Assembly: GCA_944390825.1 (NCBI GenBank)
Contig: CALXRG010000005.1
Span: forward strand, 62,001-126,000
Direction of reading: 5' to 3'
Origin: an uncultured Akkermansia sp.
Lineage (GTDB): Bacteria > Verrucomicrobiota > Verrucomicrobiia > Verrucomicrobiales > Akkermansiaceae
DNA: 64,000 bases
Position 1 is the stretch's first letter, and the number at the start of each line of letters is the position of its first letter. The notes under the pieces were generated by a model, which saw only the letters and a list, made by a program, of their open reading frames with translations, was not told where the DNA came from and searched no databases. A program made the position numbers and the translations under genes. Below, piece by piece: positions 41,972-52,010 of the stretch.

Positions 41972-42383
41972 TGGTGCGGGGTGGTTCGGGGAGTCGGTGC
42001 CTGGATGGGTTTGGTTCAAGCGGGCGGGCGAGTGCGTCGGCCCGGTAGATGCGGGGGTGTTGCTGAGCGGTTTCATGCTCGCGCTGGTAGTGGCGGGCGC
42101 AGAGCAGGAGGACTCCCAGCAGGATGATGACGCAGCCGGCCAGCAGCCAGAAGGCGACTTTGCTCGAGGAGGTGCGCGGAAAGAAGCGGTGCTGTACCCA
42201 GGTGTGCAGCATGCGGTGCGCGACGGCCAGCAGGGTCGCGATGCTGAAGATCATTTCGCCGGCGTCGAGGCTCCAGCCGAGACCTGTGAGGATGGCGGCG
42301 ATAATCCAGAGGCCAATGCAGGCGCGGTCGTAGCGGGTGTTGATGGCGGCGATGTCGGCCAGTTCACGCGGGGTTTTCGGCAT
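41934..42383 (-). CDS. Small membrane protein, two transmembrane helices
   Basis: The product is 149 residues from the ATG at 42383 (MPKTPRELADIAAINTRYDR). Two hydrophobic helices are visible, CIGLWIIAAILTGLGW and VAFWLLAGCVIILLGVLLLC, with a His/Arg-rich loop between and a Pro-rich tail. I recognise no family. It lies 115 nt downstream of the RND pump gene on the same strand, past a hairpin. Its last 38 nt are antisense to the 3' end of the SNF2 gene. Confidence 0.6.
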   Translation of the reverse strand: MPKTPRELADIAAINTRYDRACIGLWIIAAILTGLGWSLDAGEMIFSIATLLAVAHRMLHTWVQHRFFPRTSSSKVAFWLLAGCVIILLGVLLLCARHYQREHETAQQHPRIYRADALARPLEPNPSRHRLPEPPRTITPPPGPAQHPT

Positions 42384-42454
42384 GGGATGGGAGTGGGTAG
42401 GCGGGCCGGGAGGGGTGGAGTGGGTGAGGGAAAACGGGGTGGGAGAGGGGGTAA

Positions 42455-42488
42455 GGGCCCGCCCTGCGATTGGCGGCGGGGCGGGCCC
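42455..42488 (-). terminator. Hairpin after the RND pump gene
   Basis: GGGCCCGCCC (42455-42464) pairs perfectly with GGGCGGGCCC (42479-42488), starting 11 nt after the pump stop codon. There is no T-tract, so read-through into the small membrane protein gene is possible. Confidence 0.55.
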
Positions 42489-42498
42489 GGGGGCTGGT

Positions 42499-45400
42499 TT
42501 ATTCTTTCTCGGCGGATTTGATCCAGCCTGAGAAGATGCGCGCGGTGGCGGGCATGACCAGCAGGTTGAGGATGGTGGCGCTGACAAGACCGCCAAATTG
42601 AACGATGGCCAGCGGGGCGAGCAGTTCGCCGCCGGGTTGGTCTTTCGCCCAGACGAGGGGCAGCAGGCCAAGAATGGTGGTCAGCGAGGTCATGATGATG
42701 GGGATGACGCGCTCCCGGGAGCCTTCGCGGATGGCTTCATCGACACTCAGGCCGCTTTGCTCGAGTGAGCGGTAGCGGTTGAGCAGGATGAGGCCGGAGC
42801 GGATGGCAAAGCCGATGACGGTCACAAAGCCGATGATGGAGCTCACGGAGAGGATGGGCGGGATGTAGTGCCCGGTCATCAGGGAGTGCATGGTGTCGCT
42901 GGAGGCGAGGAAGACGGCGATGATGCCGCCGACCAGGCAGAGCGGGATGTTGATGAGGGTGATGACGGCGCGCCTGACGCTGCCCAGTGAGGTGGCCAGC
43001 AGCAGGACGATGAGGACGCAGACGATGCTGCCGAGGATGTAGAGCCGCTTGCCGGCTTCTTCCCGGCTTTTGATGGTGCCGGCGTAGTCGACGGTGCAGC
43101 CCATGGCGTTCATGGCGGGATCGAGTTTCTCACGGCAGGCGTCGGCGAGGTCGCCGAGGTTGGAGTCCAGTGAGGGGTTGCAGGAGATCATCGCTTTGCG
43201 GCGGGTGTAGTCGCGCAGGATGAGGTTGGTGACTTCGGTGCGGTAGACTTCCGCGACGTCGCTGAGTCTCATCGTGCGGCCGCCCGGGGCGACGAGCTGG
43301 AGGTTGCGCACGTCATCGACGCTCTGACGCAGCTCGGGGTCGAGGCGCAGCATGATGTTCCAGCGGTCGAGGTTGCGGATGACTTCGCCCATCTTGAGGC
43401 CGTTGAGGGCGGCGGAGACTTGCTCGGCGGCTTCCGCTACGGTGAGGCCGCAGGCGGCGAGGGCTTCCCGGTTGTAGTCGACGCAGACGGTGTCGACCAT
43501 GACTTCACGGTTGGCCCGGGCATCGGCTACTTCCGGCATTCCCTGGAGGATCTCGGCGGCTTTTTTGGCGGCGGCGCGGATTTGCGGGAGTTCATCGCCG
43601 TAGATGTTGATGGCGATTTCGGAGTTGGAGCCGGAGAGGGCGTTGCTGATGCGGTGGGCAAGCGGGAAGCCGATCATGCCGCTGGCGCCGGGAATGCTGC
43701 GCAGTTGCTGCTGGATTTGCTCGCGCAGTTGGCGCTGGTTTTTCTCCAGGTCGACGCGTACGACGAGTTCGGAGGCGGAGACGGGTTCGGCGTGTTCGTC
43801 ATTTTCGGCGCGTCCTGTGCGCTGCGCGACGGTTTTGACGCCGTCGATTTGTTGCAGTTCGTGCATGACCTGGCCGGAGATGCGCTCGGTTTCTTCCAGT
43901 GAGGTGCCCGGGACGGCGTTGACAAAGACGGTGTAGCAGTCCTCATTGAAGGGTGGCAGGAAGCTGGTGCCAAAGGTGGAGGCCAGCCAGAGTGAGGCGC
44001 CGGTGAGCACGAGCAGTGAGCCGAAGACGGTTTTGGGGAAGCTCATGCAGAAGTTCAGAACCGGGGTGTAGAGGCGCTTGATGAGGCGCGCCGAGGCGGA
44101 GTCGCCGCTGCTGTTGGAGGCGTTGGCTCCGGGGGTGTTGGCTGTGGCTCCGGGGAGCTGTGCCGTTGCGCTGGTTTCTGCTGTTCCGTTGCTGCCCGGT
44201 TTGCCGGTTTTGAACCACATGAGGCAGAGCACGGGGATGATGGTGATGGACACCAGCAGGGAGGCGAAGAGTGCCAGGATGTAGGAGATGCCCAGCGGAC
44301 GGTAGAATTGACCTTCCAAGCCGCTCAGGAAGAGCAGGGGAACGAAGACCAAAATGATGATGACGGAGGAGAAGCTGATGGAGCTGACAATCTCGCCTTT
44401 GGCTTCCATGAGCACGGCAATGCGCGATTTTTGCTGCTCCGGCGGCAGCGCGGCGTTGCGGCTCAGGCTGCGCCAGGCGTTTTCGACGAAGATGATGGCG
44501 TTGTCGACGACGTCACCTACCGCGACGGCAAGGCCGCCCAGGGTCATGATGTTGATGGCCAGACCGAACACTGGGAAGCAGGCCATGCCCAGCAGGACGG
44601 AGAGCGGCATGCTTACGAGGGTAATCAGGGCGGTGCGGATGTTGAGCAGGGTCAGGAAGATGACAATCATCACGACGATGCCGGCAATGTAGAGGGTTTC
44701 TTTGCCGTTCTCCAGGGAGAGGGTGATGAAGTCTGCCTGCCGGTAGGCGTCGGCGTGCAGTTTCATGTTGGCCGGGAGCTGACTGGAGGCAAACTCGCGG
44801 ACGGCTTTGTCAACGGCCTGGGTGAGCTCCATGGTGTTGGCACCGGGTACTTTCTGCACGGAGAGGATGACTGCCTGCTGGCCCTGGAAGCCCGCGTTGC
44901 CGCGGCGGGGAGCGCCGTCGATGCGCACGTCCGCAACGTCTTCCAGCCGCAGGACTCCACTCGGATGGCCGGGGACCAGGGTGCGTTTGATGTGCTCGGG
45001 AGTCATGGCGCGCGAGGCTTGCTGCACGGGCAGTTCCTGCCCGGCGACGTCTTCGAGGTAGCCGGCAGGGACGCTGCTTTGGGAGGCATCGACGGTGGCT
45101 TTGAGATCATCGAGGGTGATGCCGGCCTGGCGCATTTTTTCGGGGTCGAAGAGAATCTGGTACTCCGGCAGGCGGCCGCCCAGCACGGTGACCTGACCGA
45201 CGCCGGGAATGGACATGAGGCGGTTGCGCAGGTCAAACTCGCCGACGCGCCGCATGTCCAGCGGGTCGGCGGTTTCATCCCCGGTGATGGCGATGAGCAT
45301 GATCTCACCGGTGACGGAGACGATGGGGGCCATCTCGCACTCAACGTTGTCGGGCAGCATCTCGCGCACGGTGGACAGGCGCTCGGAGACGATTTGGCGC

Positions 45401-45714
45401 GCGAGGTAGATGTCCGTATCCCAGTCGAAGTCGACCCAGACGAAGGAGAGGCCGCCGGCGGATGAGGAGCTGACGCGGGTGACGCCGGGGGTGCCGTTCA
45501 TGGCGGATTCCAGCGGGATGGAGATGTATTGCTCAACTTCTTCGGCGGAGAGGCCGCCGGCTTCGGTCTGGATGGTGACGCGCGGGACGTAGAGCTCGGG
45601 GAAGACATCGACAGGCAGTCGGCTGACGACGACGGCGCTCAGCAGGGCGAGCGCCAGGGTGAGGATGAGAACCGTGACGCGGTTTCTCAAACAGAAGTCC
45701 AGGAGGGCATTCAT
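42499..45714 (-). CDS. Heavy-metal RND efflux pump, inner-membrane subunit (CusA/CzcA-like)
   Basis: The 1071-residue pump has the RND layout: helix 1 (VTVLILTLALALLSAVVV), a large periplasmic loop, helices 2-6, a second loop and helices 8-12. ELYVPRVTIQTEAGGLSAEEVEQYI and GGLAVAVGDVVDNAIIFVENAWR (helix 4 with the proton-relay Asp) place it nearer the CusA/CzcA metal branch than the AcrB drug branch. A low-complexity Thr/Ala/Asn/Ser-rich stretch (about residues 515-545) lies in the middle cytoplasmic loop. It works with the adaptor and outer-membrane channel encoded upstream in the same operon. Confidence 0.93.
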   Translation of the reverse strand: MNALLDFCLRNRVTVLILTLALALLSAVVVSRLPVDVFPELYVPRVTIQTEAGGLSAEEVEQYISIPLESAMNGTPGVTRVSSSSAGGLSFVWVDFDWDTDIYLARQIVSERLSTVREMLPDNVECEMAPIVSVTGEIMLIAITGDETADPLDMRRVGEFDLRNRLMSIPGVGQVTVLGGRLPEYQILFDPEKMRQAGITLDDLKATVDASQSSVPAGYLEDVAGQELPVQQASRAMTPEHIKRTLVPGHPSGVLRLEDVADVRIDGAPRRGNAGFQGQQAVILSVQKVPGANTMELTQAVDKAVREFASSQLPANMKLHADAYRQADFITLSLENGKETLYIAGIVVMIVIFLTLLNIRTALITLVSMPLSVLLGMACFPVFGLAINIMTLGGLAVAVGDVVDNAIIFVENAWRSLSRNAALPPEQQKSRIAVLMEAKGEIVSSISFSSVIIILVFVPLLFLSGLEGQFYRPLGISYILALFASLLVSITIIPVLCLMWFKTGKPGSNGTAETSATAQLPGATANTPGANASNSSGDSASARLIKRLYTPVLNFCMSFPKTVFGSLLVLTGASLWLASTFGTSFLPPFNEDCYTVFVNAVPGTSLEETERISGQVMHELQQIDGVKTVAQRTGRAENDEHAEPVSASELVVRVDLEKNQRQLREQIQQQLRSIPGASGMIGFPLAHRISNALSGSNSEIAINIYGDELPQIRAAAKKAAEILQGMPEVADARANREVMVDTVCVDYNREALAACGLTVAEAAEQVSAALNGLKMGEVIRNLDRWNIMLRLDPELRQSVDDVRNLQLVAPGGRTMRLSDVAEVYRTEVTNLILRDYTRRKAMISCNPSLDSNLGDLADACREKLDPAMNAMGCTVDYAGTIKSREEAGKRLYILGSIVCVLIVLLLATSLGSVRRAVITLINIPLCLVGGIIAVFLASSDTMHSLMTGHYIPPILSVSSIIGFVTVIGFAIRSGLILLNRYRSLEQSGLSVDEAIREGSRERVIPIIMTSLTTILGLLPLVWAKDQPGGELLAPLAIVQFGGLVSATILNLLVMPATARIFSGWIKSAEKE

Positions 45715-45810
45715 GGTTACTGACGGTGTTCTGTTGGTTGGGGATGTATGCCGGATGGGGCCGGGGGGCAGTGCCTGCAGGACGGTTTGCGGTGCCGGAC
45801 GGCGGGGCGG

Positions 45811-47295
45811 TTAGTTGTCTTCGCCTTCATGGAATTTGCCGTCGGCGTGGAAGTGACCGGCTTTCTTTTTGGCCCCTTCCCCAGGCAGGATGTATTTGAG
45901 TTCATAGCCGCCTTTGACGACGATACGCTGGCCGGGTTTGAGGCCTTTGACTGGTGTCATGCCGCGGCGGCTGGTGCCGGCCTGGACTTTCATCATGGCG
46001 AACTTGCCTTCGGCAACCTCGACGAAGACGACGTCATCGACGCCGACCTTCACAATGGCGGAATCCGGGATGGGGATGCTGCCCTGGCTCTGCTCCGAGT
46101 CGTCGTAGAGGTCGAGGCGGCAGAGCTGGCCGGCCGGGACGCCGGCGGGCATGCTTTCCGGGGTGAAGTAGAGGGTGCGGGTGAGTTTCTCCGGGTCGAC
46201 CTGCTCGGCGAGACGCCAGCTGCCCCGGACGGTGACGTTGTCGCGCCCGACGGGGATGGTGGCACGCACCTGGTTAAAGCGAGGCATGTTGCCGGCGTAG
46301 AGCGTGCCGATGATTTCCATGGCGTTGGTGTCGCTCATGGTGAGAACGGGAGCTCCCTGTTCCCCCCAGCTGCCCTGGGAGATGCCGACGTTGCGCACGA
46401 TGCCGTCCTGAAGGGCGCGGACCACCAGCACCTGCATGCCGTCCTGCTCGGTGGCTTCGCCGCCGAAGGTGATGGCGCGCAGGCGGATGCGGGCGGTTTC
46501 CAGCTCCCGCTCGAGCTGCCGCTGCTCGGCGAGTTTGAAGGTGCGCTGCTCTTCCAGTTCACTGTTGCGGCTGCCGGCGGAGGCGAGGCGGTCGAGGCGC
46601 TCCTGCATGGCGATGAGCTCTTCCCGGCTGCGCTCGAGGGCCGCTTCACCGCTGGCGACGGCTGTGATCTGCTCGGTGAGAGTCGGGGATGCCAGGGTGT
46701 AGAGAATGTCGCCTTTCCTGACCTGCTGGGCGGATTTGACGTGCAGGGTCAGCCGGCCGGCACAGGGCAGTGCGTAGGTGTTCATGGCGTGGTTGGGCGC
46801 GCTCAGGTAGCCGTACATGCTGTGGGTGAGGGCTTGGGTGGCTTCCGGGACTTCCTCAATCTGCATGTTGAGGATGTGGCGGGAGCGGGCGTCGGCTTCT
46901 ACGATGACGGCATCCCCCCCGGTGCAGACCTCCTCCGGGGCGTGGACGTGGCCGTGCGCCGCGTGATCGTGGTCGTGGCTTTCGTGTTCAGCTTCGTTGT
47001 GGTCTTCATGCCTGGCCTCGGTGTGGCTGCTGTGGTCGTGGTCTGCGGTGCAGGTGTCGCCAGCGTGCTCGGCGTGCTCAGCATGTTCAGGGTGCTCGGC
47101 GTGCTCGGCGTGCTCGGCGTGCTCGGCGTGCTCGGCGTGCTCGGCGTGCTTGTGCTCGGCATCTGACGGGGGTGCGCTGTCAGGATGTTCTGCGGTGCAC
47201 GGGGCGCCGTCGGTGTGGGTGTGGGGTTCGGCGGCTCGGGAGACGGGAGCGCAGGTCAGCGCGGTGGCAAGGGTGATGAGGATGGAAAGTTTCAT
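45811..47295 (-). CDS. RND efflux adaptor with His-rich metal-binding N-terminus (CusB/CzcB-like)
   Basis: The 494-residue periplasmic membrane-fusion protein has a signal peptide (about 1-21) and then a remarkable His-rich region. Residues 25-118 contain 26 His, including nine AEH/PEH triplets in a row (51-77), and end in DHDHAAHGHVH. From about residue 128 a typical adaptor follows with a barrel-sandwich hybrid domain, a helical hairpin (about 205-270), a beta-barrel and a membrane-proximal domain. A second His patch ends the protein (GHFHADGKFHEGEDN). It joins the pump to the channel and probably hands over Cu, Zn, Co or Ni; the metal cannot be told from sequence. Confidence 0.92.
   Translation of the reverse strand: MKLSILITLATALTCAPVSRAAEPHTHTDGAPCTAEHPDSAPPSDAEHKHAEHAEHAEHAEHAEHAEHPEHAEHAEHAGDTCTADHDHSSHTEARHEDHNEAEHESHDHDHAAHGHVHAPEEVCTGGDAVIVEADARSRHILNMQIEEVPEATQALTHSMYGYLSAPNHAMNTYALPCAGRLTLHVKSAQQVRKGDILYTLASPTLTEQITAVASGEAALERSREELIAMQERLDRLASAGSRNSELEEQRTFKLAEQRQLERELETARIRLRAITFGGEATEQDGMQVLVVRALQDGIVRNVGISQGSWGEQGAPVLTMSDTNAMEIIGTLYAGNMPRFNQVRATIPVGRDNVTVRGSWRLAEQVDPEKLTRTLYFTPESMPAGVPAGQLCRLDLYDDSEQSQGSIPIPDSAIVKVGVDDVVFVEVAEGKFAMMKVQAGTSRRGMTPVKGLKPGQRIVVKGGYELKYILPGEGAKKKAGHFHADGKFHEGEDN
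47062..47145. repeat. 9-bp tandem repeat encoding AEH triplets
   Basis: GTGCTCGGC (read on +) is repeated almost perfectly across this stretch, inside the adaptor gene. Unit length is a multiple of three, so copy-number changes keep the frame and only alter the number of AEH triplets. Confidence 0.85.
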
Positions 47296-48626
47296 GGTTT
47301 GTGGAAGGGGTTGAGGTAGAGAATTTGGGTTTGGACGTCCAGAAGCTGCTCGAGGCAGTCAAGGTAGTTGATGTGACGCTCGAAGACTTCCTGCCGTGAG
47401 CCGGCCAGAGCGGGCATGCCGATTTCGCCGATGGCGAAGAGGGCTTCCTGACGCTGCTCGGCATCGCGCAGGACGCCGAGGTTGGTGAACTCCTCCCGGC
47501 AGTGCTGGAGGGCGAGTTGCTGGCGGTCGGAGAGGGCAGCGGCGTTGCGCAGCAGGGCTCGCCACTGGGAGATGGCATCGTGGTGGCGGATGTCGCGCTC
47601 TGCGTTGGCGGCGGCGATGGCTTCGCGGTTGCGGTTCCAGAGGGGGATGTTGAAGCCGATGGTGGGTTTGAGCTTGTCCACGTCATCCGCTCGCTCCCAG
47701 CCCATGCTCAGGGAAAGCTCGGGGTACTGGCGGCGGATTTCGCGGCGCAGTTCCTGCTCGCCGGCTCCGTAGCTGGCCATCAGGGCTTTGAGTTCGGGAG
47801 ATTCCAGCAGGGCGTCGCCGTCCGCTACCGGAAGAGCCGCCGGCAGTTCGCGCGGCAGGGAGCCCTGAAGCTCGATGTCGCGCATGTCCGGGTGCAGCCC
47901 CAGGAGATTGACGAGTTCCAGGTGCTGCTGGAGGTGCAGGTTGTCCAGCTCCTGGAGTGCTTTCGTGGCGTCGAAGGTGCGCTGGTTGGCCAGCTTGAAC
48001 TCGGCAAACTCGACCTCGCCGAGTTCATAGAGTTTGGCGATCTTTTCTTCCTCGTCGCGCAGCCGGGTGAGGCGGGTGCGCATCAGCTGCTGCTTGGCGT
48101 GGCTGACCATGATGCGGTGACGCAGGGTGTCGAGCTGCTTGAGGAAGTCGCGTTCCTGCGTGCGCATGGTCCAGTAGTCCGCTTCTTTGTATTGCTCAGC
48201 GATTTTGGAGGCCAGGGCGGGCAGGCCGGTGACAGGCAGGGTGAGCCCCGGGTTGTAGGTCTGCCCGGTGGCGTAGGGGCTGAGGGTGTAGGCGAGTTCG
48301 GTGGAGAGTGAGGGGTCTTCCCACAGCCCGGCAAACTCGGCAATGCTGGTGGATTTGGCGTAGGTGAGGCGGGCCTTGTTCAGATCGGGGTTCAGCATGA
48401 GGCCGATGTTGTGCAGATCGGCCAGGCTCAGGGCGGGTTTGGCGCAGAGTTTGCGCGAGAGGGTGAGCCACTCCGCGGTGTTGCGCTGCAGGTCGAGGGG
48501 TTTGGCTGTGTAGACGGTGCAGGCTGCCAGCAGGCCCAGCAGAAGGACGGTGCCGCAGCGTAGGGCTTTGTGCCGTGCCCTATGGTGTGGGGTGTGAGAG
48601 GTGATGAGCGGAAGGTGAGGGTGCAT
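47292..48626 (-). CDS. Outer-membrane efflux channel (TolC/CusC-like lipoprotein)
   Basis: The 444-residue protein has a lipoprotein signal ending in LLGLLAAC (Cys36) and two outer-membrane-efflux repeats with long helices (about 150-230 and 350-430). ISQWRALLRNAAALSDRQQL and ELGEVEFAEFKLANQRTFDA are typical coiled segments. It forms the outer-membrane exit duct of the tripartite pump. Its stop overlaps the adaptor start by 4 nt, so the two are translationally coupled. The N-terminal 20 residues before the hydrophobic core are His/Pro-rich. Confidence 0.9.
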   Translation of the reverse strand: MHPHLPLITSHTPHHRARHKALRCGTVLLLGLLAACTVYTAKPLDLQRNTAEWLTLSRKLCAKPALSLADLHNIGLMLNPDLNKARLTYAKSTSIAEFAGLWEDPSLSTELAYTLSPYATGQTYNPGLTLPVTGLPALASKIAEQYKEADYWTMRTQERDFLKQLDTLRHRIMVSHAKQQLMRTRLTRLRDEEEKIAKLYELGEVEFAEFKLANQRTFDATKALQELDNLHLQQHLELVNLLGLHPDMRDIELQGSLPRELPAALPVADGDALLESPELKALMASYGAGEQELRREIRRQYPELSLSMGWERADDVDKLKPTIGFNIPLWNRNREAIAAANAERDIRHHDAISQWRALLRNAAALSDRQQLALQHCREEFTNLGVLRDAEQRQEALFAIGEIGMPALAGSRQEVFERHINYLDCLEQLLDVQTQILYLNPFHKP

Positions 48627-48660
48627 GATTAAACGTTTGCTTGAATGTTTGTCTGAAGCT

Positions 48661-48688
48661 ATGATATGTTGGAATGGTCGGAAGTCAA
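48661..48688 (-). promoter_or_regulatory. Promoter of the RND efflux operon
   Basis: On the - strand TTGACT (48688-48683) and TATCAT (48666-48661) are 16 nt apart, giving a leader of about 28 nt to the ATG at 48626. No CueR/CopY-type palindrome was recognised. Confidence 0.6.
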
Positions 48689-48885
48689 GGTGATTTTTGA
48701 GGAAGAACGGGTGAATCCCGTAGCGGGGAATCCCGGGTTGGAGAATGTTGCCGCAGAGGAAAGGCGAGGAGGGGAGAATATGGAGAAGGAGGGGGATGAG
48801 GGTAAACCGGGTGGCTGCATCCGGGCATCAAGAGGGGGCCGCCGCGTGAGGTACGGGCGCCAGGGAGAGGCGATTGGGCCGGGGT

Positions 48886-49353
48886 TCAAATGAGCAGGGG
48901 GCGTGGTCGCTCGCCGGGTAGGGGGCGGGCCATCCACGGGTGCTCGTCGGGGAGGGGTATTTGCGCGAGCTGCCAGACGGGCAGGGGGACGCAGGCTTGA
49001 TGCATCAGCGCTGCCGGGCAGGGGGGAAGCTGGGCCTGGATGGAGCAGAGGCTCAGCTGGTAGGCCATGTAGTCGCAGTCATGCGGGGAGCCGGGTTGCC
49101 CGGCCGGGGGAGATGCCGGAGCGGGGCTGCCCGAGCCGGACCGGTCGCTGGCGGCCGGTTGAGGCTGGCAGCAGTCGCAGGAGCCGGTGAGTGCTGCATC
49201 CCCCTTTTCCTGCTGGCTGATCTGATGGCAGGAGCAACCGGCAATGTACATCAGCCCTTCGCAGGCACACAGGTGCGTCAACGACCCCCCGACGACTGCC
49301 GGAAGCATGGCCAGCAGAAGGAGTACTGCGAGGAGGGGACGGGGCTGTCTCAT
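48886..49353 (-). CDS. Cysteine-rich exported protein
   Basis: The 155-residue protein has a signal peptide (about 1-23) and 11 Cys: 29, 31, 40, 42, 59, 61, 62, 93, 103, 112 and 121. The closely spaced motifs CAC, CSC and CDCC alternate with His27, His43 and His91, which suggests soft-metal binding. It is the gene upstream of the metal efflux operon on the same strand and has its own promoter. I recognise no family. A metallothionein-like or copper-chaperone role is an inference. Low-complexity Ser/Pro/Ala lies at about 65-88. Confidence 0.65.
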   Translation of the reverse strand: MRQPRPLLAVLLLLAMLPAVVGGSLTHLCACEGLMYIAGCSCHQISQQEKGDAALTGSCDCCQPQPAASDRSGSGSPAPASPPAGQPGSPHDCDYMAYQLSLCSIQAQLPPCPAALMHQACVPLPVWQLAQIPLPDEHPWMARPLPGERPRPLLI

Positions 49354-49377
49354 GGCGTTTGGAGGCCTGATGAGGTT

Positions 49378-49405
49378 ATTGTACGGTTTGCTGCTTGTAT
49401 GTCAA
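49378..49405 (-). promoter_or_regulatory. Promoter of the Cys-rich protein gene
   Basis: On the - strand TTGACA (49405-49400) and TACAAT (49383-49378) are 16 nt apart, about 25 nt before the ATG at 49353. Confidence 0.7.
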
Positions 49406-49554
49406 GCTTTCATTGCCGGAAGGGAAAGGACCTGTGCCTAAATGATGGGCTTTTTTGCTTTGCTGAAAGAATGGGTGTGCCAGGAGCGTACTTATGAGAA
49501 AGTGGCAGTCGTTTTTACGCCGGCTGCAGATATTCTCCGACCGAATGTAACAAT

Positions 49555-51762
49555 ATGATGACACGAACATTGATGATGGTGGTGGCGTGCTGCCTGTGCG
49601 GGCTCACGCCGATGCAGGCTCAGGCTGAGGTGGGCGCTGCTTTGCAGGCTGAGGAGTTGAAGAATCACCCGTTTATGGATACGCGCCTGTATCCGGAGTG
49701 GTCGAAGATGACGCCGGAGCAGGGTGCTCGGGATGTGCTGCTGGGTATCGAGATGGCGCGTAAGCGCTTGGAGGTGATTTGCTCGGTTAAGCCGGAGCAG
49801 GCGACGTATGAGAATGTGTTTGGCGCGTTCGAGAATGCGGACCGTGAGATGGGTCGCGCGCTTGGGTTTGTGTCTCATTTGTCTTCGGTGATGGATTCGC
49901 CTGAGATTCGCGCGGCAAAGGATCAGGTGTTGCCCGTTTGTGCTGAGTTCGCTAATTCGATTACGGCAAATGAGCGTCTTTGGTCGGTGATTAAGAGTGC
50001 TTCGCAGCAGCCGTGGGTGAAGTCTCTCGATCCGGAGCGGCAGCGTTATGTCCAGCAGGTGGTGGATTCTTTCCGCGACAGTGGTGCGGATTTGCCCGCT
50101 GAGCAGAAGGCCCGCAAGGCTGAGATTGTGCGTGAGTTGACGCAGTTGACGAATCAGTTTAATCAGCATGTGCTGGATGCGACGAATGCCTGGGAGTGGG
50201 TGGTGACGGACAGGGCTCAGCTTGATGGGCTGACGGAGCAGTGGCTGGAGTCTGCCCGTCAGGCGGCGCTGGCTAAGGGGTATGGTACGGAGCAGGAACC
50301 TCAGTGGCTGATTACGCTGGATTATTCCTGTTACCGCCCAGTGATGGAGCTTTGCCATGTGGAGGCTACCCGTCGTAAGTGCTGGGAGGGGTATGCCCAT
50401 ATTGCTAAGGGTGGACCGTACGATACGGAGGCGATTGTGGCCCGGGTGATGGAGCTGCGCCGGGAGTTGGCGGAGCTGCTTGGTTTTGATAATTTTGTGG
50501 ATCTGACGGTGGCCCGGCGTATGGTGAATTCCGGTGATAAGGCGATGCAGTTTGTGGATGGGATGATGCAGAAGCTGAAGCCGGCGTTTGACCGTGAAAA
50601 GGCGGAGTTTATGGCTTATATCGCGAAGTGCACGGGTAAGGAGGTCAATAAGGTGGATCCTTGGAGCCGGATGTATTATGCTTCGAAGATGGCCCATGAG
50701 TTGTATGATTTCGACCCCGAGTCGCTGCGTCCGTACCAGGCGAGTGAGAATGTGATTAAGGGAATGTTCTCTATCGCTCAGCATCTGTACGGTATTTCGA
50801 TCCGTGAGGTGCCGACGGTGTGCCTGAAGCCCGGGGAGTCTTGCCCTGCCGGTAAGGTGGAGGTGTGGCACCCGGATGTGCGGTTGTTTGAGGTGTATGA
50901 CGCTAAGTCAAAGGCTCATATGGGGTCGTTTTACATGGATCTTTACCCCCGCGCGTCGAAGCGCGCCGGGGCTTGGGTGATGATGATGTCGGCCGGTGAG
51001 CCGGCCGCAGACGGTAAGCCTCATGCGCCGCATTTGGCGACGCTGGTGGCGAACCTGACGCCGCCGAATGAGGATGGGGTGGCTTTGTATTCTCATTATG
51101 ATGTGGAGACGCTTTTCCATGAGTTCGGTCATATGCTGCATGTGATGTGCAGTGATGCCGGGTTGCGGACGCATATGGGGACTAGTGTGGCTTGGGATTT
51201 TGTGGAGTTGCCGAGTCAGTTGAATGAGAATTGGACGTGGGAGCCGGAGGGGCTGGCGACGTATTCGTTCCATTATAAGACGGGTGCGCCGATTCCTCAG
51301 GATCTGGTGGATAGTATGCAGAAGGCGCGTTTCTTCATGCCGGCTAATGATAATATGGGGCAGCTCGGTATTGCCAAGCTGGATTTGGAGATGCACATGA
51401 ACTACGATGAGAAGTTCAAGGGTAAGCCGCTGGATGATGCGACAAATGAGTTGCTGGCGCCGTGGCGTATCCCGTTCAGTGTGGAGATTCCTTCGATTAT
51501 GCGCACGCTGACACACTGTATTTCCGGTGGTTACGCCGGTGGGTATTACAGTTACAAGTGGGCGGAGGTGCTGGCGGCGGATGCGTTTAGCCGCTTTGCC
51601 AAGGAGGGGGTGATGAATGAGAAGACCGGTGCTGATTACCGCAAGCACATTCTGGCTCCCGGTGATTCCCGCTCGGCCTCAGATATTTACCGTGAGTTTA
51701 TGGGGAGGGATCCGAATCCTGATGCGTTGCTGAGGAAGCAGGGGTTGATTTCGGAGTCGTGA
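49555..51762 (+). CDS. Exported M3-family oligopeptidase (Dcp/OpdA-like)
   Basis: The 735-residue metallopeptidase has a signal peptide (about 1-24, ending in AQA), so it acts in the periplasm, unlike E. coli OpdA. The zinc motif HEFGHMLH and the downstream Glu-containing segment ENWTWEPEGLATYS are intact, and YSHYDVETLF leads into it. CISGGYAGGYYSYKWAEVLAADAF is the family C-terminal signature. It cleaves short peptides. Two ATGs (49555 and 49558) are possible. Codons end mostly in G or T, unlike the C-ended rpl/rpo genes. Confidence 0.94.
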   Translation: MMTRTLMMVVACCLCGLTPMQAQAEVGAALQAEELKNHPFMDTRLYPEWSKMTPEQGARDVLLGIEMARKRLEVICSVKPEQATYENVFGAFENADREMGRALGFVSHLSSVMDSPEIRAAKDQVLPVCAEFANSITANERLWSVIKSASQQPWVKSLDPERQRYVQQVVDSFRDSGADLPAEQKARKAEIVRELTQLTNQFNQHVLDATNAWEWVVTDRAQLDGLTEQWLESARQAALAKGYGTEQEPQWLITLDYSCYRPVMELCHVEATRRKCWEGYAHIAKGGPYDTEAIVARVMELRRELAELLGFDNFVDLTVARRMVNSGDKAMQFVDGMMQKLKPAFDREKAEFMAYIAKCTGKEVNKVDPWSRMYYASKMAHELYDFDPESLRPYQASENVIKGMFSIAQHLYGISIREVPTVCLKPGESCPAGKVEVWHPDVRLFEVYDAKSKAHMGSFYMDLYPRASKRAGAWVMMMSAGEPAADGKPHAPHLATLVANLTPPNEDGVALYSHYDVETLFHEFGHMLHVMCSDAGLRTHMGTSVAWDFVELPSQLNENWTWEPEGLATYSFHYKTGAPIPQDLVDSMQKARFFMPANDNMGQLGIAKLDLEMHMNYDEKFKGKPLDDATNELLAPWRIPFSVEIPSIMRTLTHCISGGYAGGYYSYKWAEVLAADAFSRFAKEGVMNEKTGADYRKHILAPGDSRSASDIYREFMGRDPNPDALLRKQGLISES

Positions 51763-51799
51763 GGCTTTTTCTCTCGAGTAAGGAAATGGAGTTGACTGG

Positions 51800-51829
51800 G
51801 CCGGAGTTGGGAGCTTTCCCGACTCCGGC
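51800..51829 (+). terminator. Terminator of the M3 peptidase gene
   Basis: A 13-bp stem (51800-51812 with 51817-51829, one G-T wobble) with loop GCTT is followed by TATTTGT. Confidence 0.7.
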
Positions 51830-51981
51830 TATTTGTATGCTCCGGCTTCGCGTGAGGGAACATCCGCGGCGGGTCAGAATGAGAGCGCCCAGAAGAAAGA
51901 GTCCGTAAGGGATATGGTGTGCCACGGGGAGTTCAGCCGCAATATTTGGCATAGGCAGAAGGGGTTCCGCTTGTTTTTTGC

Positions 51982-52010
51982 TTGCTTTTCGGGGCGCCGC
52001 TCTTTATAGT
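51982..52010 (+). promoter_or_regulatory. Promoter of comM
   Basis: TTGCTT (51982-51987) and TATAGT (52005-52010) are 17 nt apart, 26 nt before the ATG at 52036. Confidence 0.6.

Follow-up and report, generated by a model that had tools for sequence, protein, structure and literature searches.

A Cys-rich leader gene upstream of czcCBA in Akkermansia and its candidate role as an exported, cis-acting metal sensor

The leader gene and its linkage to efflux genes

The window, i.e., the whole 64,000-nt stretch of DNA from an uncultured Akkermansia sp. that was analyzed here, carries an RND-type czcCBA-like efflux operon preceded by a short leader ORF (Table 1). With the model TIGR00914 the czcA/cusA-like pump reached 604.5 bits, which is below the cut-off of 701.45. 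In the N-terminus of the czcB-like adaptor (window positions 46900–47295, (-) strand), the signal is followed by a tandem repeat rich in His (HAEHAEH...), which might be a metal-binding tail. For the leader ORF, the window sequence bears out the product of 155 residues with 11 Cys, including CAC, CSC, and CDCC clusters, as given in the initial annotation. The several His residues that had been noted amount to five in the translation, and the proposed signal peptide agrees with a hydrophobic N-terminus, for which the AlphaFold model predicts a helix at residues 5–24. Also the promoter that had been assigned to the leader was found upstream of the ORF with 11 of 12 consensus matches. The leader lies on the same strand as the RND operon, as described, whereas “just upstream” applies with a reservation, as the gap of 259 nt is longer than in most relatives. 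An ORF on the + strand (48940–49497) overlaps the leader ORF.

Table 1. Positions of the leader, its elements, and the downstream operon in the window
Feature	Position	Strand	Remarks
Leader ORF, Cys/His-rich protein, predicted to be exported	48886..49353	(-)	155 aa, stop TGA; homologues in genus
Predicted N-terminal hydrophobic export signal, residues 1-24	49282..49353	(-)	sequence and helix 5-24 in AlphaFold model
Conserved Cys core C29, C31, C42, C59, candidate metal site	49177..49269	(-)	alignment A1
C-terminal P-L-L-I before stop, last sense codon ATT	48889..48900	(-)	family counts for P at -4 and NNT
Leader promoter TTGACA-16-TACAAT, 11/12	49378..49405	(-)	-10 ends 24 nt before ATG
Leader-czcC intergenic region, 259 nt, rut-like (C-rich, G-poor on transcribed strand)	48627..48885	(-)	no convincing intrinsic terminator
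Second promoter-like site TTGACT-16-TATCAT before czcC, 10/12	48661..48688	(-)	possibly chance
czcC-like outer membrane efflux protein	47292..48626	(-)	Pfam OEP 6.1e-13
czcB-like adaptor, His-rich N-terminal repeat	45811..47295	(-)	Pfam HlyD_3; NCBIfam TIGR00999 below its cut-off
czcA/cusA-like RND pump	42499..45714	(-)	Pfam ACR_tran 8.3e-225; TIGR00914 3.4e-181

The protein had been described as unrecognised, and this was upheld by comparisons with Pfam, NCBIfam, and PHROGs, which yielded no match better than chance, and with the PDB, where all matches had E > 3. A scan of the genome contigs with the window protein as single query did not recover the family, and a protein search of 59 relatives gave one good match beyond its own genome (G029, 3.2e-9). 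After these single-sequence searches had failed, the family was recovered via the czcC loci. A czcC homologue is present in 64 of the 76 genomes of the genus Akkermansia, including the window's own, and 64 czcC loci besides the window were compared, which come from 63 genomes, one of them with two copies. An ORF of the same design lies directly upstream of czcC in 50 of these 64 loci (51 of 65 with the window). Thus, the leader ORF is more than a chance reading frame and is confirmed as a real, conserved gene. Among nine near relatives (36 pairs), the substitutions by codon position (557, 394, and 1088) show coding-type evolution of the leader, with a median dN/dS of 0.26 compared to 0.08 for czcC. 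No leader is present in 13 of the 64 loci, and one locus holds just 80 nt before czcC, so that it cannot be judged. In two of the loci without leader (L104 and L119), its place before czcC is occupied by an ORF 80–400 nt upstream of czcC with a C-x-x-C pattern, which we take to resemble that of a heavy-metal-associated domain. Three of the members (L080, L081, and L103) were added after the first filter. Two contigs of genome G013 each carry the leader-czcC region (L121 and L122), and the leader is the same in both, which may reflect duplication or assembly redundancy; both are counted among the 51, and one was omitted from alignment A1. A set of 36 non-redundant members was picked by a simple string-similarity cut.

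A profile of 50 leader members matched 51 places in the genus genomes at E ≤ 1.2e-5, all 51 of them at czcC, while four weak matches (0.002–0.0075) sit away from czcC. None of the 12 genus genomes without czcC gave a confident match. Since the profile was itself built from czcC loci, this shows that there is no confident unlinked copy, and not a blind recovery of every linked copy. The proposed link to a metal pump is thereby borne out, and homologues that are never linked to metal resistance genes, which would have spoken against it, are not what the profile search found. Outside the genus but within the same order, 13 leader loci were identified (8 and 5 more), all of which precede efflux genes (10 OEP and 3 HlyD-type). 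Pfam confirmed all 10 of the order-level downstream proteins tested (7 OEP, 3 HlyD), and an RND pump homologue follows further downstream in 6 of 8 loci, in one case as a partial match at the sequence end. In the order-level relatives L156, L178, and L179, the leader stands ahead of an HlyD-type gene rather than an RND operon, and in L156 this gene is followed by an ABC ATPase-like ORF.

The Cys core and the C-terminus of the leader

The leader diverges rapidly, with a mean identity of 0.28 compared to 0.44 for CzcC (190 pairs). Of the 11 Cys residues of the window protein, four are conserved in the 50 rows of alignment A1, namely C29 (37/50), C31 (45/50), C42 (45/50), and C59 (48/50), and His91 is retained in 34 of the 50 rows. 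The remaining seven Cys are poorly kept, so that a lack of Cys conservation, which had been named as an argument against the initial annotation, applies to these seven and not to the core. The middle of the protein is unconserved. Profile libraries miss the family, as nothing beyond the Cys core and the final four residues is conserved. With the 50 rows as input, AlphaFold predicted no fold (mean pLDDT 61.6, pTM 0.32) and was confident in the signal helix only. The family members are shorter than 150 aa in 46 of 51 cases, which the window leader exceeds. A script assigned their start codons, not necessarily correctly, whereas the C-terminal counts are independent of them.

At the C-terminus, Pro occupies position -4 in 50 of the 51 leaders (35/36 among the non-redundant members). 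The last residue is Ile in 32 and Cys in 15 of 51, preceded by Leu (33/51) or Arg (16/51), whereby L-L-I and L-R-C directly before the stop are the commonest endings. The last sense codon is of the type NNT in 48 of 51 leaders, compared to 17.6 expected from the synonymous usage in the same loci, and in 33 of the 36 non-redundant ones compared to 13.0 expected; as the members are related, these last-codon counts do not represent independent draws. Among the genus leaders, Ile is encoded by ATT in 31 of 32 and Cys by TGT in 15 of 15 cases. As controls, 6 of 51 czcC genes from the same loci and 6 of 34 window ORFs end in NNT. Outside the genus, 12 of 13 leaders have NNT as last codon, across Ile, Val, Ala, and Leu codons. 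The stop codons are mixed (27 TGA, 20 TAA, and 4 TAG), and the NNT bias holds across them. Thus, it is well supported that the end of the leader is a constrained site.

The initial annotation had suggested a periplasmic metal scavenger or chaperone, and it might be that the leader acts in trans in the periplasm, be it as a scavenger, as a chaperone that feeds the pump, or as a CzcI-like modulator of pump activity. The link to the pump, which is strict, the predicted export, and the conserved Cys core all agree with such a protein, as does CzcI of Cupriavidus metallidurans, whose gene lies upstream of czcC and which reportedly quenches the activity of CzcCBA (PMC10127602). However, a trans-acting protein leaves the synonymous U bias of the last codon and the fixed last four residues unexplained, and the fast divergence, the missing predicted fold, and the spacer hairpins described below speak against it. 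We therefore consider this explanation somewhat unlikely, and less likely than a cis-acting nascent-chain sensor. The latter would suit the data better than a scavenger or chaperone since the constraint is strongest at the extreme C-terminus and the last codon and since a hairpin frequently follows.

The leader-czcC spacer and the promoters

In all 51 loci czcC lies directly downstream of the leader. Terminator-like hairpins, for which we required ≤ -8 kcal/mol and a subsequent T-run, are present between the two genes in 29 of the 51 loci (20 of the 36 non-redundant ones), whereby the window is not among them; in the other 22 no spacer hairpin reaches the threshold. For 22 of the 29 hairpins p was ≤ 0.05 (60 shuffles each). 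The control regions gave such hairpins in 1 of 13 czcC loci without leader, in 4 of 51 antisense strands, and in 7 of 51 regions upstream of the leader. A stricter terminator scan did not report the hairpins of L064 and L079. In 27 of 29 cases the hairpin starts 11–37 nt after the stop codon, so that most hairpins start outside the stretch that a ribosome at the stop is expected to cover. In the window spacer, the best hairpin has -6.1 kcal/mol (p 0.16), which does not constitute a convincing intrinsic terminator. The spacer contains 109 C and 38 G on the transcribed strand, which places it in the top 0.7% of 6376 stretches, and this C-rich composition could suit Rho.

RNAalifold analysis of the spacers of 12 near relatives yielded no compensated pair; on visual inspection, individual hairpin pairs have changed in both partners from one relative to another. 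A CutF-like stem between the leader end and the czcC start was considered as a general feature and rejected (-12.8 vs -12.5 for cross-locus pairs). In several loci, such distant pairing between the end of the leader and the sequence ahead of czcC is striking by eye, yet it is unenriched compared to cross-locus pairs. Pairing of the post-stop bases with the flank of the U-tract was mildly stronger than in cross-locus pairs (-5.5 vs -4.5, own pairing better in 21 of 29), and we do not rely on it. Rfam searches gave no match in the window region 42000–52000 and, among the 64 loci, only a tRNA (17/64).

Of the 51 loci, 42 have a sigma-70-like promoter at the leader, compared to 4.8 expected from shuffles. 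This count stems from a scan that was extended 75 nt into the ORF; the 35 of 51 obtained without the extension are too low because some of the script-chosen starts lie too far upstream. In the family, the median distance from the end of the -10 element to the first in-frame ATG is 12 nt, and the transcripts would thus be leaderless or nearly so. In L064 (645–708) and L079 (2472–2484) the promoter overlaps upstream ATGs, which suggests that the true starts are further down, and annotations of such leaders may frequently give an incorrect start.

In the spacer, promoters before czcC occur in 4 of 51 loci compared to 3.3 expected, which is chance level, and the window is one of the four. Since the window combines this promoter-like site with the absence of a convincing terminator, czcC may be transcribed separately there. 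It could also be that leader and czcC form two independent transcription units, with the hairpin merely terminating the leader mRNA and a separate promoter driving czcC. The hairpins in 29 of 51 loci and the 10-of-12 site of the window would fit such an arrangement, but the chance-level frequency of intergenic promoter-like sites over the family argues against it, and we regard it as unlikely.

Proposed mode of action and related systems

A third explanation, in which the fixed hydrophobic end of the protein directs it, once released, to a periplasmic protease as a degradation or PDZ tag and any regulation runs via protein turnover, would agree with the exact C-terminal position, the mostly hydrophobic last residues, and the rapid degradation of CutF after export described in PMC9973294, but it gives no reason to prefer ATT over ATC or TGT over TGC and sits badly with Arg at -2 in 16/51 and a terminal Cys in 15/51, which makes it very improbable.

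CutF and CruR are exported or Cys-bearing uORFs whose synthesis senses copper and controls the next gene, according to PMC9973294, PMC8456105, and PMC9426467. By analogy, and on the basis of the sequence comparisons, we consider it reasonably probable that the leader of czcCBA works in a similar manner, i.e., as a cis-acting metal sensor in the form of an exported nascent chain. Here, the ribosome would translate the leader while its Cys/His part is being exported, and binding of periplasmic metal to the nascent chain would change the dwell time of the ribosome on the terminal P-x-x-[I/C] stretch, either at the stop codon or directly beside it. The dwell would then decide whether transcription or translation continues into czcCBA, in many relatives by way of an intrinsic attenuator and in the window perhaps via Rho, given the C-rich spacer. 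The finished leader protein would probably be a by-product, with the making of the protein rather than the product sensing the metal. Most likely, the leaders constitute a new Verrucomicrobial family of a known kind. If true, the range of cis-acting exported metal sensors would come to include Akkermansia, which is a major degrader of mucin in the gut, as well as its order. A more specific version, which we put forward tentatively as possible rather than probable, is that the exported metal-sensing leaders of Verrucomicrobiota arrest the ribosome at their own stop codon, need both the P-x-x-[I/C] C-terminus and an NNU last codon, and gate an intrinsic attenuator of an RND metal pump, which would amount to a termination arrest of the TnaC type under control from outside the membrane. 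The last-codon constraint offers a sharp handle on whether such sensors arrest ribosomes at termination. According to PMC9973294, the CutF tail gave no arrest when placed inside longer fusions, and according to PMC8456105 CutO activity fell to about 15% upon addition of a C-terminal tag; by analogy, a constraint on the last codon and the stop may explain both.

No paper on this leader family was among those listed in literature searches, and the text of the CutF-like survey contains no mention of Verrucomicrobia (0 occurrences in PMC9973294). Like the Sec-exported CutF of Rhodobacter capsulatus and CutF-like proteins (PMC9973294), the leaders are small, have a Cys metal site (here a candidate) and a constrained Pro-containing C-terminus, and immediately precede metal genes, which for the CutF-like proteins are most often OEP/RND genes; the hydrophobic N-terminus of the window leader would fit an export signal. 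CutF itself is characterized by the PP-rich tail PEPEGPPPRL (PMC8456105) and a stem-loop over the cutO Shine-Dalgarno sequence. In contrast, the Akkermansia leaders end in P-x-x-[I/C]-stop, contain PP within the last 15 residues in only 22 of 51 members, show no enrichment of Shine-Dalgarno-type pairing, and often have a terminator-like hairpin in the spacer. Measured by the definition of CutF-like proteins in PMC9973294, the window leader is too long with 155 aa and its last 15 residues contain no PP; the family agrees in part.

CzcI of C. metallidurans is likewise a small protein, in this case periplasmic, whose gene lies directly ahead of czcCBA (PMC10127602), but it is said in PMC9973294 to be devoid of the C-terminal proline motif. 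None of the 50 members matched a named CzcI or CopL model in NCBIfam or Pfam. Such models are present in both libraries. HYC_CC_PP (NF047658) is likewise a short Cys-rich family with a PP motif in the model name and occurs near metal efflux genes in Bacteroidota. An NF047658 search matched none of the 59 relatives, whereas the control Bacteroides ihuae was found, and the NCBIfam scan gave 0 of 50 members.

CruR/DUF2946 (PF11162) shares with the leaders the Cys-motif uORF and, according to PMC9426467, regulates transcription into the following gene through an arrest motif at its C-terminus, with Rho and a C>G region; unlike CruR, the C-termini of the members carry no RAPP motif. PF11162 matched none of the 50 members at E ≤ 0.1, and no genus genome was among the matches listed in a search of the genomes. 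Given the partial agreement with the CutF-like proteins and the missing DUF2946 and HYC_CC_PP matches, we file the leader as CutF/CruR-like in its proposed action and not as a family member. One order-level relative of the leader scored 19.8 bits on PF11162 compared to the cut-off of 23.7, and among the DUF2946 genes found in the phylum, just 4 of 7 have T at the end of the last codon.
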